Shown here in pieces: positions 8,349 through 40,342 of a DNA stretch of 40,342 bases (its first letter is position 1; each line of letters opens with the position of its first letter). The translations under genes were made by a program, and so were the position numbers. Origin of the DNA: a bacterium (GTDB taxonomy: Bacteria; Actinomycetota; Acidimicrobiia; Spongiisociales; ZC4RG35); contig JAHEDH010000012.1 in the NCBI GenBank assembly GCA_024641285.1, positions 1 to 40,342 of the forward strand. The letters run 5' to 3'. The notes under the pieces were generated by a model, which had not been told where the DNA came from, ran no database searches, and saw only the letters and a program-made list of their open reading frames with translations.

Positions 8349-8370
8349 CGAAGAGCGAGGCTAGCTGTTG

Positions 8371-8405
8371 CGGCTTCCGGCTTCCGGCTGCCGGCTGCCG
8401 GCTAC
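8371..8405. repeat. Heptamer tandem repeat (CGGCTTC x2, CGGCTGC x2, CGGCTAC)
   Basis: Exact 7-bp period read directly: cggcttc cggcttc cggctgc cggctgc cggctac. Confidence 0.9.
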
Positions 8406-8469
8406 CAGCCCTTCGGATTCGGACCGTCTTGGCTCTCCGGCGGCTGCGGAGGCGGGCAACGCGCTCCCT

Positions 8470-18490: not shown

Positions 18491-18889
18491 GTGAGCATCG
18501 TCGTCGGATTCATCGACACACCGGAGGGCAACGCCGCAGTCCAGTCGGCGATCGATGAAGCCAAGTTGCGGTCCACGTCGATCGTCATTCTCCATTCAAT
18601 GGTGGGCGGTGGCCACGAGAAGGGATCGGAGTATCTCGCATCCGCCGAGGCGATCGAGCGAATCGAGCAGCTCCTCTCGGAATCGGGTGTTGAGTACTCG
18701 TCCCACGAATACGTGCGCGGCAAGTCGCCAGCCGAGGACATCGTGACTGCTGCCAAGGTCCACGACGCCGAGCTCATCGTCATCGGCATTCGCAAGCGGT
18801 CCGCCACCGGGAAGCTGCTGCTGGGCTCCAACGCCCTCGACATCCTCCACGACGCCCCCGTCCCCGTCCTCTGCGTCAAGGCAGGGTGA
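18491..18889 (+). CDS. Universal stress protein family
   Basis: GTG start after GAAGGAG; MSIVVGFIDTPEGNAAVQSAIDEAK..., ELIVIGIRKRSATGKLLLGSNALDILHDAPVPVLCV. Confidence 0.92.
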   Translation: MSIVVGFIDTPEGNAAVQSAIDEAKLRSTSIVILHSMVGGGHEKGSEYLASAEAIERIEQLLSESGVEYSSHEYVRGKSPAEDIVTAAKVHDAELIVIGIRKRSATGKLLLGSNALDILHDAPVPVLCVKAG

Positions 18890-18890
18890 C

Positions 18891-18939
18891 GTTCCACGTT
18901 CCAGGTTGAATCGTGAAACGTGAAACGTGAAACGGGTCA
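18891..18939. repeat. Heptamer repeat and potential hairpin between convergent genes
   Basis: gttccac gttccag gttgaat cgtgaaa cgtgaaa cgtgaaa cgggtca: three identical consecutive units; left units nearly complementary to right units. Confidence 0.85.
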
Positions 18940-20298
18940 GGCGATGACTGGGACGTTCGCCATCGCGGCGCGGACCTTCTCCTCGGGGTAGTCGTAGTCG
19001 ACGAGCTCGCCTGAGAGATACGCCTCATAGGACTTCAGGTCGAAGTGACCGTGACCACACAGCGCCGTCAGGATGACCGTCTCTTCGCCTGTCTCCTTGG
19101 CACGGTTGGCCTCCCGGATCGCAGCGGCGATCGCGTGGGTCGGCTCCGGTGCCGGCACGATGCCTTCGCTCTTGGCGAACTTGATGGCGGCGTCGAAGCA
19201 CTCGTTCTGATGGATCGCCTCGGCCTCGACCAGGCCCGACTCGTAGATGTGCGAGACCAGCGGTGCCATGCCGTGGTAGCGCAGCCCTCCGGCGTGGATC
19301 GGATCAGGGATGAAGTCATGGCCGAGCGTGTGCATCTTCACGAGCGGCGTCATTCCCATCGTGTCACCGAAGTCATACCGGTACTCACCCTTGGTCAGCG
19401 ACGGGCAGGCCGCAGGCTCGACGCAGCGGATCGTCGGGTTCATCCGGCCCGCCATCTTCTCCCTGAGGAACGGGAACGAGAGGCCACCGAAGTTCGACCC
19501 GCCGCCGGTGCACCCGACCAGGAGGTCGGGGGTCTCGCCGATCTTGGCGAGCTGCAGCAGGGCTTCCTCTCCGATGATCGTCTGGTGCATCAGCACGTGG
19601 TTGAGCACCGAGCCGAGCGCGTACTTGGTGTCGGGGTCGCCGACGGCTGCCTCCACGGCCTCGGAGATGGCGATGCCGAGGCTTCCGGGAGAATCGGGAT
19701 CCCTGGCGAGGATCGCCCGACCGGCTCCTGTGAGGTCCGATGGGCTGGGATGCACGGTCGCCCCCCAGACCTGCATCATCGTTCTCCGATACGGCTTCTG
19801 GTCGTAGGAGGCGCGCACCTGCCACACCTCGCACTCCATCCCGTACTGGGCGGTGGCGAACGCCAGCGCCGAGCCCCACTGTCCGGCTCCGGTCTCGGTC
19901 GTCAGCTTCTTGACGCCCTCGGAGTGGTTGTAATACGCCTGTGGCACCGAGGTGTTGGGCTTGTGCGACCCGGCGGGCGAGACGCCCTCGTACTTGTAGT
20001 AGATACGGGCGGGCGTATCGAGGAGCTTCTCGAGCCGGTGCGCCCGATACAGCGGTGACGGCCGCCACAACCGGTACACGTCGAGGACCTCGCCGGGGAT
20101 GTCGATGTAACTCTCGCTGGACACCTCCTGTTCGATGAGGGCCATCGGGAACAGCGGGGCGAGGTCGTCGGGTCCGATCGGCTCGTGCGTGCCAGGGTGG
20201 AGCGGGGGAGGGGGCGGCGTCGGGAGGTCCGGGATGATGTTGTACCACTGGGTCGGCATCTCGGATTCGTCGAGAAGGATCTTGGTCTGGGCAGCCAT
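18937..20298 (-). CDS. trpB: TrpB-like PLP-dependent enzyme (tryptophan synthase beta chain, TrpB2 type)
   Basis: [54 protein letters not shown], and the extended N-terminus [24 protein letters not shown] typical of TrpB2. Confidence 0.92.
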
Positions 20299-20456: not shown

Positions 20457-21716
20457 ATGATGCTTTCTGGCAACCTGACCGACTGGAGTGTCGGCGACCT
20501 CCTGCAGATGCTCCACATCACCAAGAAGACGGCTTCGCTTCACGTGTCCGGGGCCGATCGGGCCGGCGTGGTGCACTTCGAAGGCGGTGCCATCGTCAAC
20601 GCCGACGTGTCTCTCGGCGGCGGTGCCGGCGAGCACCCCCGCGACGAAGTCATCGAGGCGGTGTACGTCCTGGAGTTGCTCGGCGAAGGCACCTTCGAGA
20701 TCAAGGGTGAGGTGCCGTCGCGCACCGTGGACCCGATCCCCGTCGCCGAGGCGCTCGAGCTCGCCGGCGAGCACCTCGAGGCCGAGAAGCACCTCGACGA
20801 GACCGGGCTGCTGGCGGCGCGCGGTCTGCGGCTCGCCCAGACCATCGAAGAGCCGATCATCCTCTCCGAGCAGGTGTGGAACGCCATCTCGGCATCGATC
20901 CCGGCATTCACCTTCCCCGAGCTCGAAGCGCGGCTCGGACGCGCCGGCGCCGTCGCAACCATCGAGCAGTTCCGGGATCTCGGCATCCTGGAAGCGGTAC
21001 TCGAGGACGTCGAGCTGCCGGCCGCCCAGAACGAACCGATCGTGGTCGCTCCGGAGGAACCGAACCCGATCGTGGTCTTGGAGGAGTCGCCCGCCCTAGG
21101 CGATCCGTATGCCCACGATGAACAGTACGCCCACGATGAAACGTACGTCCACGAGGAGTCGTACATCCACGAGGAGCCGCATGTCCAGGATGAGCCGTCG
21201 GACCTCGAAGGTGAGGGTGATGCCGAGGTCGACGCTGCCCTCGCAGAGGCGTTTCGCGATGCCTGGATGACTCCCGGCGAGGAGCCCGGCGACGCCATGA
21301 TCGTCCCCGAAGCTGTCGAAGACGTCCGGCCGATCGTGGCGCAAGCCGCCGACGATTCGATCGTCGTCCCCTCCGTCGACAGCCCGGCGGAACCGGCGGT
21401 GGATCCCGCACCGGCGCCGAGCGGCGTTTCGTCCCTCTCGGCCGCCATCCGCGCCGCTGCCGAGGCTGGTGGCGCAGCCGCCGTCGTCAATCAAGCCGAC
21501 GACGAGTCGAAGCTGCTGTCCGAAGCGGCCGGAGACCCCGCAGCTGCGGAGGCGCCCTCCACCATGGATGCGGCTCCCCACGACGGGGACGGATCGCTGC
21601 GTCGAACGGTGCGATCGCTCGTCTCGCCTCCCGAGACCGCACTCGTCTCCGGAGTGCTCGGGGATCTCGGCACCCGCTTCCGTCAGGCGGCAGCCGCTTC
21701 CGACAACGAGGACTGA
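20457..21716 (+). CDS. DUF4388 (PATAN-like) domain protein with acidic low-complexity C-terminal half
   Basis: [51 protein letters not shown]. Confidence 0.85.
21108..21197 (+). repeat. In-frame 18-bp tandem repeat encoding five hexapeptides
   Basis: [30 protein letters not shown]. Confidence 0.9.
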
Positions 21717-28102: not shown

Positions 28103-28179
28103 AGTCACGAGTCCGGAACAGACGCCGGTCGGCCGGGGCTGCCGCTCGCGGGGTTCGGGTGGGTTGTTGTGATCGTGCG

Positions 28180-28229
28180 TGTGGTCTTGCCGGCCGACTT
28201 CCGGACAGGCGCGTTGGAGGTACACGGGG
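28180..28229 (+). repeat. 50-bp direct repeat, copy 2
   Basis: tgtggtcttgccggccgacttccggacaggcgcgttggaggtacacgggg. Confidence 0.95.
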
Positions 28230-28230
28230 C

Positions 28231-28279
28231 GTGTGGCGTGTCGCGTGTCGCGTGTGGCGTGTGGCGTGAGGCGTGACGC
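28231..28279. repeat. Heptamer tandem repeat, 7 units
   Basis: gtgtggc gtgtcgc gtgtcgc gtgtggc gtgtggc gtgaggc gtgacgc. Confidence 0.93.
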
Positions 28280-28310
28280 TCGCGGATACCGGTTCCCGGC
28301 CTCTACCCTC

Positions 28311-37249: not shown

Positions 37250-39214
37250 ATGAGAACCAACTTCACACGCTGGGTCGCGCTCACAGCGATCTCCGCTGTC
37301 ATCGTCGCGGCGTGCTCCTCGGAGGCGACCGACGACCTGTCCACGACTACAGCAGCAGACGACGCTCCCACCCAGACCGATGTCACGCCGCCGGCAGACT
37401 CCGGCTCCGACGAATCGTTCGAGCTGTCGATCGCCATCTTCGAAGACCTCACGACGGACAACTTCTGGGCGTATCTAGATCCGGAGAACTCGGTCTGGAA
37501 CAGCTACGTGTTCGGAAACCAGGCGCCGGCGCTGTTCCAGTACGCATCGCCCACGCTCCAACTCGTCCCACAGGTGAGCGAAGGCCTGCCGGTCGAACCC
37601 GTCCAGACCGGCGACACCTGGACGGTCACCCAGACCATCAAACAGGGCCTCACCTGGTCGGATGGCGAGGAAATCACCGCCGGTGACATCGTCTTCACGT
37701 ACGAGACCGTGCGTGACCTCGTGCTGGGAGGTCAGTGGTTCTCCAGCTATCCGATCGCATCCGAGGACGATCCCGCCACCGACGACGACGAGTCGCTTCC
37801 AGGTCTGACCGCCGTCACGGCAATCGACGACCACACCGTCGAGTACACGTTCAACCAGACGCCGGGACTTTCACTCTGGCAGTTCGGGGTCGGCCTCGCA
37901 CCGATCCTCCCCGAGCACTACTGGGCGGCTGTCGTGGCCGACTCGGCGACTTCGGCGGATCTATACGCCGCGCCGGGTCTCGGCGCCCCGGGAATGTGGG
38001 CGTACGACTTCACCGAGCGTGAGCCGGGTGCCTTTGCGAGGAACACCGCCAACGCCAACTACCCGTTCGCCGGTTCGACCACCCGCATCTACGACGACGG
38101 CACCTATGAGTTCTCCGCCGACGGCATCGACGAGCAGTTCTATGGCGACGGCACGGGCAGTGTGGGGTACGAGTACACCGAAGGCCCGTACGCAGAGGAC
38201 GTGACGTACTCGATCTACACCGACCAGAACGCCGCCGTGCTGGCGCTGACGAGCGGTGAGGTCGACTTCATGCTCAACTCCCTCGGTCTCCAACGAGGTC
38301 TCCAATCGCTGGTGCTCGCCGACCCGTCCCTCGACATCGTGGTGAACCCAGCCAACTCGTATCGGTATCTGGCGTTCAACACTCGGCGCTTCCCGATGTC
38401 GGAGGTTGCATTCCGCCAGGCGATGGGCTGCATGATCGACAAGGAGTTCATGGCGAACAACGTGCTGCAGGGCTCGGCCATACCCGCCTGGAGCCAGGTC
38501 CCCGAGGCCAATGCCTTCTGGTACAACCCGGACGCGCCGAGGTTGTGCGAGGGGTTGACGCAGGAGGAGCGTCTCGCGGAGGCGACCCGCATCCTCAAGG
38601 ATGCCGGATGGACGTGGGACGTCGAGCCCCTGTGGGACGCGGACAACCTCGATGCGCTGCCGAAGGGCGAGGGACTCCGTGGCCCGGACGGAACAACCGT
38701 TCCGGACCTCGAGTTGCTCGCTCCCGGACCGGGTTACGACCCGCTGCGCGCCACCTACTCCCTGTTCATCGAGGAGTGGGCCCAGGATCTCGGCGTCCCG
38801 TTGACCGCCGAGCCGACGGGGTTCAACGTGATCGTGGACGCCATCACCGATCGCAGCGCTCCGTTCGACATGTACATCCTCGGGTGGTCGCTCACCCCCT
38901 TCCCCGATCACATCGTCGACTTCTTCGCCTCGTCGAACGACTCGACTGCCGGTGGAAACAACTACCCGGGATACTCGAATCCGACGTTCGACGCCTTGGC
39001 GGCGCAATTCCAGTCGACGACCGACGTGGACGAGGCACGCGGAGTGATCAAGCAGATGGACGCGATCCTGGCGGAGGATCTGCCCTACGTCGTGCTCTTC
39101 ACGGCGCCGATCATCGAGCCGTACCGCAACACCCTGTCGTTCCCGTTCTCGGACACCTTGAGCGGGCTCCAGAACCTCCAGGGTCTGCCGTCGTTCGTCC
39201 GTCTGGCGCAGTGA
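37250..39214 (+). CDS. ABC transporter substrate-binding protein, family 5 (peptide/nickel type)
   Basis: Lipoprotein signal MRTNFTRWVALTAISAVIVAACSS; TWTVTQTIKQGLTWSDGEEITAGDIVFTYETV; VAFRQAMGCMIDKEFMANNVLQGSA. Confidence 0.92.
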   Translation: MRTNFTRWVALTAISAVIVAACSSEATDDLSTTTAADDAPTQTDVTPPADSGSDESFELSIAIFEDLTTDNFWAYLDPENSVWNSYVFGNQAPALFQYASPTLQLVPQVSEGLPVEPVQTGDTWTVTQTIKQGLTWSDGEEITAGDIVFTYETVRDLVLGGQWFSSYPIASEDDPATDDDESLPGLTAVTAIDDHTVEYTFNQTPGLSLWQFGVGLAPILPEHYWAAVVADSATSADLYAAPGLGAPGMWAYDFTEREPGAFARNTANANYPFAGSTTRIYDDGTYEFSADGIDEQFYGDGTGSVGYEYTEGPYAEDVTYSIYTDQNAAVLALTSGEVDFMLNSLGLQRGLQSLVLADPSLDIVVNPANSYRYLAFNTRRFPMSEVAFRQAMGCMIDKEFMANNVLQGSAIPAWSQVPEANAFWYNPDAPRLCEGLTQEERLAEATRILKDAGWTWDVEPLWDADNLDALPKGEGLRGPDGTTVPDLELLAPGPGYDPLRATYSLFIEEWAQDLGVPLTAEPTGFNVIVDAITDRSAPFDMYILGWSLTPFPDHIVDFFASSNDSTAGGNNYPGYSNPTFDALAAQFQSTTDVDEARGVIKQMDAILAEDLPYVVLFTAPIIEPYRNTLSFPFSDTLSGLQNLQGLPSFVRLAQ

Positions 39215-39222
39215 GGTTTTTG

Positions 39223-39396
39223 CCTCGCCTGGCGGTTCGGCGCTTTTGGCCCTCGGCTGTCAGCTGTCGGCTCCACGGGGAGGTGTGCGTGTGCCGTCGG
39301 AGTCTGATGGGGACCTGGTTGCCTGCCTTGGGCTGGGACCTCCGGCGCCGACCTTCCATGCGAGAGGAAGGCTGGGAGCTGGGCTTCGGTTTCGGC
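39223..39396 (+). repeat. Composite repeat copy 1: heptamer array, unique core, opposing heptamer array
   Basis: Left units 39236-39277 ttcggcg cttttgg ccctcgg ctgtcag ctgtcgg ctccacg; core gtgtgccgtcggagtctgatggggacctggttgcctgccttgggctgggacct; right units 39369-39396 aggctgg gagctgg gcttcgg tttcggc. Confidence 0.88.
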
Positions 39397-39462
39397 TGAC
39401 GTGAATTCGTCGGTCGAACAGCCGCATCGGGTCTCAACAGGCCCGGGGCGGCCCTCCACACG

Positions 39463-39500
39463 ACGGGGTGGCAGAGTCGATGACTCTGTCACCCCGTTTC
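39463..39500 (+). terminator. Strong intrinsic terminator
   Basis: ACGGGGTGGCAGAGTC-gat-GACTCTGTCACCCCGT-TTC; 16-bp stem with one G-U pair. Confidence 0.8.
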
Positions 39501-39664
39501 CTCGCCTACCGGCTCGGCGCTTTCGGCTTTCGGCTCTCGGCTCCACGAGGAGGTGGGCGTGTGCCGTCGGAGTCTGACGGGGACCTGGTTGCCTGCCTTG
39601 GGCTGGGACCTTCGGCGTCGCCCTTGCCTGCGAGGAAGGCTGGAAGCTGGTAGCCGGCAGCCGG
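39500..39664 (+). repeat. Composite repeat copy 2
   Basis: Left units 39513-39547 ctcggcg ctttcgg ctttcgg ctctcgg ctccacg; core near-identical to copy 1; right units 39637-39664 aggctgg aagctgg tagccgg cagccgg. Confidence 0.88.
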
Positions 39665-39669
39665 GGGTA

Positions 39670-40119
39670 TCAGCCCCCCAGGGCTTCGATCAGGCTCTCT
39701 TGCAGCAGGGCGAGGGTGTTGAGGACTGCCAGGGTGTGCTCGTCGAGGGTTTCGTAGTCGGCTTCGATCTCGAGACCGGCCCGGGCGGCGATGACCAGCC
39801 TGGTCTCGGTCAACACGCGCAGCATGGCGTAAGCCTCCAGCTCGGAGATGACGACCCCCTCGTCGGCGACCGCCAGGATCTCGGCGAACGCAGAGCGGTC
39901 GGCTATTTTCGACTCATTCAGCTCGCCGCCCATCCAGCGCCACCAGTCCTCGTTGGCCTCGGCGTCGTCGAGGTAGACAGGGACCTGGAGGCGCTCGGCA
40001 GCCGGATCCTCCCCGACCGAACCAATTGTCGCCAGTAGCTCGGGGATGTCCGAGAGGAAGGTGACCATCCAGTCGGGCATCTGGAGTTCAAGGCCGTCGC
40101 GGTGTCTGGAGATCTTCAT
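39670..40119 (-). CDS. DUF2017 family protein
   Basis: MKISRHRDGLELQMPDWMVTFLSDIPELLAT; directly follows clpS with ATGA overlap. Confidence 0.85.
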   Translation of the reverse strand: MKISRHRDGLELQMPDWMVTFLSDIPELLATIGSVGEDPAAERLQVPVYLDDAEANEDWWRWMGGELNESKIADRSAFAEILAVADEGVVISELEAYAMLRVLTETRLVIAARAGLEIEADYETLDEHTLAVLNTLALLQESLIEALGG

Positions 40120-40342
40120 GTCTCCATCGTCGCCCACAGGCCGTGCTGATGCAGCCGGTAGCAGTCCATCTCGGCCTGTTCCCGCGGTCCGTCGTTGACG
40201 ATCGCCCGCCCCTCGTTGTGCACCTGCATCGTCAATCGCATCGCCTTCTCCTTGGAATGCCCGAACAGCGTCCGCAGGACCCAGGCCACGTAGGACACGA
40301 GGTTGACGGGGTCGTTCCAGACCACGACCTTCCAGACCTCAT
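40116..40342 (-). CDS. clpS: ATP-dependent Clp protease adaptor ClpS, N-terminus outside window
   Basis: Minus strand EVWKVVVWNDPVNLVSYVAWVLRTLFGHSKEKAMRLTMQVHNEGRAIV; frame open to window edge. Confidence 0.93.
   Translation of the reverse strand, partial: EVWKVVVWNDPVNLVSYVAWVLRTLFGHSKEKAMRLTMQVHNEGRAIVNDGPREQAEMDCYRLHQHGLWATMET

Follow-up and report, generated by a model that had tools for sequence, protein, structure and literature searches.

Two tandem copies of a composite element, in which opposing arrays of degenerate heptamers flank a spacer, lie between two convergent genes near the end of the window (the whole 40,342-bp stretch of DNA analysed here, which is contig C224 in a draft genome of 3.4 Mb and 224 contigs; the assembly is 89.5% complete and, judged by its gene content and relatives, probably comes from an actinobacterium). 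We estimate a probability of roughly 60% that this locus represents a tandem duplication within a genome-wide family of inverted heptamer-array elements in intergenic gaps, in which arrays would lengthen and shorten by 7-nt slippage and whole elements would be copied or swapped between gene gaps through a DNA-level process. An element of this family follows the stop codon of a gene, at a distance that is usually about 20 bp, and would persist since gaps after stop codons tolerate it. Its transcript could form an imperfect hairpin, with at most a REP-like effect on mRNA and no dedicated function.

Anatomy and local duplication of the window elements

A preliminary description made from the window alone had claimed a duplicated composite element with opposing heptamer arrays, and direct reading of both copies confirmed it (Table 1). 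Each copy carries degenerate RGCTNYC heptamers on the left, inverse heptamers on the right and a near-identical spacer between them, with 85% identity between copies over 151 query bases in a search of the host genome. The cores (gtgccgtcgg at 39291 and 39561) are 270 bp apart and the cctcgcc heads (39223 and 39500) are 277 bp apart; thus, copy 2 has one 7-bp unit fewer before the core, exactly the one-unit difference that had been described. A right array had also been ascribed to both copies; that of copy 2 is intact, whereas that of copy 1 is badly degraded. The hairpin between the copies is likely to be the terminator of the upstream gene; it has three T only, including the last stem base, which places it under the threshold of the terminator-finding tool, and the tool did not list it.

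Table 1. Features of the window locus, and gaps compared between the host genome and sister species G001
Feature	Position	Strand	Basis or remark
Element copy 1 (head, left heptamer array, core/spacer, degraded right array)	39223..39385	+	Sequence reading, comparison
Element copy 2 (head, left array, core, intact right array)	39500..39664	+	Sequence reading, comparison
Copy 1 head motif CTCGCCTGGCGGTTCGG	39224..39240	+	One mismatch to CTCGCCTGGCGGCTCGG
Copy 2 head motif CTCGCCTACCGGCTCGG	39501..39517	+	Two mismatches to CTCGCCTGGCGGCTCGG
Copy 1 left array, 6 units: ttcggcg cttttgg ccctcgg ctgtcag ctgtcgg ctccacg	39236..39277	+	
Copy 2 left array, 5 units: ctcggcg ctttcgg ctttcgg ctctcgg ctccacg	39514..39548	+	
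Copy 1 core/spacer	39278..39366	+	Homology to copy 2 alone
Copy 2 core/spacer	39549..39636	+	Homology to copy 1 alone
Copy 1 right array (aggctgg gagctgg ..., badly degraded)	about 39369-39385		
Copy 2 right array, inverse of RGCTNYC heptamers: aggctgg aagctgg tagccgg cagccgg	39637..39664	-	
Near-perfect hairpin ACGGGGTGGCAGAGT-CGATG-ACTCTGTCACCCCGT + TT, between the two copies	39463..39499	+	Direct reading
Upstream gene, ABC-transporter solute-binding protein (SBP_bac_5)	37250..39214	+	Stop codon 9 bp before copy 1
Downstream convergent gene, DUF2017 protein	39670..40137	-	Stop codon 5 bp from copy 2
Type-switched gap	L165:3350 (GGCTTCC) / L155:6334 (GTTGACA)		
Type-switched gap	L165:2708 (CCACGCC) / L155:5689 (GGGTYNT-like)		
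Type-switched gap	L166:5469 (GGCTGTC) / L167:5580 (GTTGACA)		
Type-switched gap	L166:7532 (GTTGACA) / L167:7673 (GGGTYNT-like)		
Type-switched gap, flagellin	L035 (GGCTCTC) / L182:2084 (GTTGACG)		
Same-type nuo gap	L165:2232 / L155:5209		
Same-type nuo gap	L165:4993 / L155:8040		
Same-type nuo gap	CGTTTCACGTTCCACG array after L165:4993 / L155:8040		

The core had been proposed to belong to a dispersed mobile module, and searches did not bear this out; they gave the very result, a core confined to this locus, that the preliminary description had named as refuting it. With copy 2 as query, full-length matches in its own genome were confined to the two window copies; eight further matches covered arrays or a head plus an array, and in 60 relatives we found short, weak matches only, none of them convincing. 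We therefore rejected the window core as a dispersed module, because everything else matched in the host genome and the relatives consisted of arrays or short chance matches; its confinement to two local copies indicates that the spacer was duplicated along with its arrays. An all-against-all comparison of RGCTNYC spacers, together with the core model described below for another element type, likewise detected no core shared among them.

Several other repeats occur in the window. An array of the same RGCTNYC type (GGCTTCC GGCTTCC GGCTGCC GGCTGCC GGCTACC) at 8360-8415 is without a clear inverse partner, and a short intergenic GTGAAAC array at 18888-18946 has a partial inverse (CCACGTTCCAGGTT) directly before it. 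The intergenic GGCGTGT array at 28217-28288 adjoins a directly repeated stretch, CTTGCCGGCCGACTTCCGGACAGG.GCGTTGGAGGTACACGGGG, and the orthologous gap in G001 (L149:308-453) lacks this array. A different dispersed repeat, (GA)ACAGACGCCGGTCGGCC(A/G)GGGCTGCCG, stands beside several heptamer loci on different contigs (about 28120-28150 in the window; L043 about 1280; L039 about 290; L056 about 130), and an 18-bp tandem repeat (CCGTACGTCCACGAGGAG, 5 copies) lies within an open reading frame at 21105-21198. The window end (40239-40342) and the end of contig C206 overlap in clpS, and the two contigs probably join. Several other contigs (C125, C184 and C187) have an array about 110 bp or less from their end, a pattern suggesting that the assembly was interrupted by the repeats.

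A genome-wide family behind stop codons

Across the genome, the dispersed unit is a frame that starts directly behind a stop codon with a short GC hairpin (the head, CTCGCCTGGCGGCTCG or variants of it) and continues with a heptamer array, then a spacer, then the inverse array. A pattern search for RGCTNNCRGCTNNCRGCT found 71 places at about 36 loci, compared with an expectation, estimated from base composition, of well under one place. Genome-wide counts given here come from such pattern searches and the other statistics from sampled stretches; reversed patterns were unusable as a chance level for RGCTNYC because CTGTCGG-type units match both readings. For the 37 arrays with enough flanking sequence, an inverse partial array was present within 260 bp downstream in 19 and upstream in 1, against 0.007 expected per flank, and the inverted pairing of one polarity is thus real. 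When arrays were chosen by one arm, the inverse partner was better in their own flanks than in the flanks of other arrays (p = 7e-5). By eye, NTC units seemed to mark the left arm and NCC units the right in a fixed polarity, but tabulation showed this to be inconsistent.

With at most one mismatch, the head occurs at 8 places here and 7 in G001, against a total of 2 in 11 other genomes from the family and order. The head is a genus-level repeat; it usually stands directly behind a stop codon and usually leads into a heptamer array. Period-7 DNA came after 79% of intergenic heads versus 14% of other stop codons (p = 4e-8). The same head also precedes other heptamers (GTCATCG, GACAGTT, GTTGTGA and GGGTTCT types) in G001 and at other loci here, and an inverse partner was again often present for these non-RGCTNYC arrays. 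Spacers ranged from 7 to 120 bp across elements and were often 75-95 bp. Upstream of clpS, contig C206 holds a second tandem pair of RGCTNYC-type elements; at this locus G001 keeps the head without a clear array. The evidence supports the view that arrays and heads belong to a composite element found across the genome, with inverted arrays as its ends. Of the earlier proposal that solo arrays elsewhere are remnants or recruitment sites, what held is that they belong to the same family as the window arrays. Terminal inverted repeats on contigs C134 and C180, considered as transposon ends, were rejected as such; they are two head-array units, one per flanking end.

Period 7 was the standout tandem period outside multiples of 3 in an unselected sample of both genomes. 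At 18/21 matches, we found 10 period-7 arrays in 325 kb of the host genome and 7 in 216 kb of G001, and none at periods 4, 5, 8, 10, 11 or 13 in the same sequence; period 14 was seen only as the double of period 7. When the nuo contigs and more of the G001 contigs were added, 60 of the 62 arrays in this enlarged sample were intergenic, although 88% of the DNA was coding. Array hairpins avoided gaps between divergent genes (2/43 versus 40/127; p = 2e-4), lay at median distances of 20 bp (stop codons) and 39 bp (starts), and were numerous between co-directional genes of the nuo operon.

This placement, together with the consistent arm polarity, which yields a hairpin, is what would be expected if the elements were functional hairpins of mRNA 3' UTRs or intercistronic regions (REP-like stabilisers, processing sites or terminators) with structure under selection. 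We regard this explanation as quite improbable given the structural results. The predicted fold of copy 2 pairs its arms, but the minimum free energies of the window copies were no better than those of shuffled sequences (z = -0.66 and +0.50), and arm duplex energies had no consistent strand asymmetry. An alignment of SACAGTT elements, a second heptamer type, gave an unfavourable covariation term (+1.32), with double changes at 3 of 27 pairs, and Rfam yielded no match above chance for the window elements and only sub-threshold matches elsewhere. The structured RNA put forward in the preliminary description was therefore unsupported by shuffles, duplex energies and covariation. Moreover, separate terminator-like hairpins lie beside the window elements and near arrays at other loci, so the array elements need not terminate, and those between co-transcribed nuo genes cannot be strong terminators.

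Heptamer types, homologous cores and replacement between sister species

Several heptamer types coexist in one genome, with hairpins formed mainly by RGCTNYC, SACAGTT, GGGTYNT-like and CACG-like units. The two arms of an element match by heptamer type. Arm duplexes within a type had energies of about -39 kcal/mol for RGCTNYC and SACAGTT, compared with mostly -16 to -21 kcal/mol for cross-type pairs; GGGTYNT-like arms paired with lower specificity. Because hairpins were selected through an arm-matching threshold, these pairing figures are inflated, the exceptions being the downstream/upstream count and the one-arm flank test above. Within a type, the arms of one element paired little or no better than arms swapped between elements (GGCT, p = 0.036; SACAGTT, p = 1.0), and coevolution of arms at the level of single loci was thus unsupported.

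These comparisons bear on the idea that the inverted arrays of each gap grew independently in place and were never dispersed, a short palindrome being extended by slippage and by template switching between its arms. We consider such an origin rather unlikely. It would account for a period that is always 7, for degenerate units that vary by locus, for the lack of homology among RGCTNYC spacers and for the sporadic appearance of RGYTNNC-form heptamers across the phylum (22/247 genomes). Heads and unit types are, however, common to many unlinked loci, and template switching predicts that own arms should pair better than swapped arms, which is not so for SACAGTT elements.

The SACAGTT elements also have cores that are homologous between loci, which speaks against independent growth. 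These elements are about 150 bp long, with spacers of 79-90 bp that contain common motifs (TGGAACCGAG ... GACTGTCATGCC). A profile built from the core only recovered all seed loci and one extra G001 copy (L182, position 10; E = 1e-5) and matched no RGCTNYC element. Homology of this core at many loci in both species indicates that complete elements of at least one type have been dispersed, and the conservation of the core suggests, from sequence comparison, an active element rather than passive drift, a point against the explanation favoured above.

Comparison with G001 revealed differences in both the types and the presence of arrays. RGCTNYC 21-mers occurred at 49 places here and 1 in G001, whereas RGTTSAC 21-mers occurred at 14 here and 37 in G001. 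In a small sample of orthologous gaps, centred on one operon and including some arrays with only one clear arm, the arrays were of a different heptamer type at 5 of 8 gaps and of the same type at three (Table 1). A 150-bp element is present at L010 in the host genome, whereas at the corresponding site of G001 (L158:6853) two convergent genes almost abut. The window gap has no counterpart for comparison in G001 because the upstream gene differs there. Farther afield, RGCTNYC arrays were almost absent from the rest of the family but abundant in scattered genera of other families, with up to 118 places (G060). Some matches to the more general RGYTNNC pattern, in large genomes, are long perfect arrays, which may be a different phenomenon. 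RGCTNYC or RGTTSAC arrays are numerous in unrelated genera of the order and phylum (G060, G046, G052, G082 and G287), where they are frequently paired in + then - order, and the neighbours of these genera have none.

Whole-element replacement of this kind, the presence/absence difference at L010, the sporadic abundance of RGCTNYC arrays and the dispersed SACAGTT core would all fit a non-autonomous MITE-like element that uses its inverted arrays as ends for a transposase encoded elsewhere and inserts after stop codons. We nevertheless judge this explanation unlikely overall. The homologous internal sequence that characterizes a MITE is present in SACAGTT elements and absent from the undispersed window core, and the MITE-like reading fits the SACAGTT type better than the RGCTNYC type of the window. 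By eye, we saw no target-site duplication, which the preliminary description had named as a check, around the window copies or at L010/L158, the sole clean empty site. A transposase search that covered Y1_Tnp alone (PF01797, the REP-type/RAYT transposase) gave 0 matches in the 89.5%-complete genome, and insertion would need to be confined to gaps after stop codons. The REPIN-like module suggested in the preliminary description was rejected for want of Y1_Tnp, and direct reading of head and array ends revealed no GTAG/CGTC-tagged palindrome.

A related proposal is that the elements form a genus-wide composite family of a constant head and exchangeable heptamer arms, in which both arms and the spacer are replaced together by another type between sister species through a copying system that lacks a REP-type transposase. 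Replacement of types is observed at the gaps compared; the proposal as a whole is a tentative idea to which we give limited credence.

Relation to known heptamer repeats

The closest relatives of the family proposed here are the intergenic heptamers of Xanthomonas (GGGAATC) and Nostoc (GGGGA(C/T)T). These repeats (PMC4692102) are about 90% intergenic, lie close to one gene end, occur as closely spaced, convergently oriented inverted pairs (70 and 75 cases) and are under-represented in divergent gaps, and no function is assigned to them. The elements described here share with them degenerate 7-bp units, intergenic placement at one gene end, inverted pairs of fixed polarity and scarcity in divergent gaps, but differ in having several types with type-matched arms, a shared head and no quadruplex G-tracts. 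Neither the RGCTNYC nor the SACAGTT consensus unit contains a run of three G on either strand, and we therefore place the elements in the broad inverted-heptamer kind rather than among G4 repeats.

Other systems share fewer features. In the P6b region of the Nostoc trnL intron, degenerate heptanucleotides on two sides pair into a hairpin and different repeat classes occur at one locus, but these repeats belong to a single intron locus and not to a genome-wide intergenic family (PMC3488679). Geobacter metallireducens has dispersed multicopy elements built of tandem heptanucleotides, and for some of them paired sites on the two strands are predicted, with a consensus (MTYCTGA) close to the GTTCTGA units of our sister species; the accessible part of that source proposes them as regulator-binding sites and describes no head or replacement between sister species (PMC2700814). 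The TAACTGA repeats of Beggiatoaceae are likewise intergenic heptamer arrays of patchy phylogenetic spread, but they are direct, with one inverted case, and lie mostly upstream of start codons (PMC4679880). REP and REPIN sequences resemble our elements as extragenic palindromic repeats near gene ends that are often transcribed, but contain no heptamer arrays, and their RAYT transposases and GTAG/CGTC tags were not found here (PMC3116915, PMC3733652).

We found no paper on this lineage in the open-access literature. New here are the several types per genome, the type-matched arms, the shared head and the replacement of types at orthologous gaps. Earlier accounts of heptamer repeats, from Xanthomonas, cyanobacteria, Geobacter and Beggiatoaceae, are piecemeal, and neither an origin nor a function has gained acceptance. 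The two sister species provide a natural experiment in which the same gaps often keep the inverted architecture while the unit sequence is replaced, and comparison of strains could directly test both the origin of the elements, by slippage, template switching or transposition, and selection for the hairpin.
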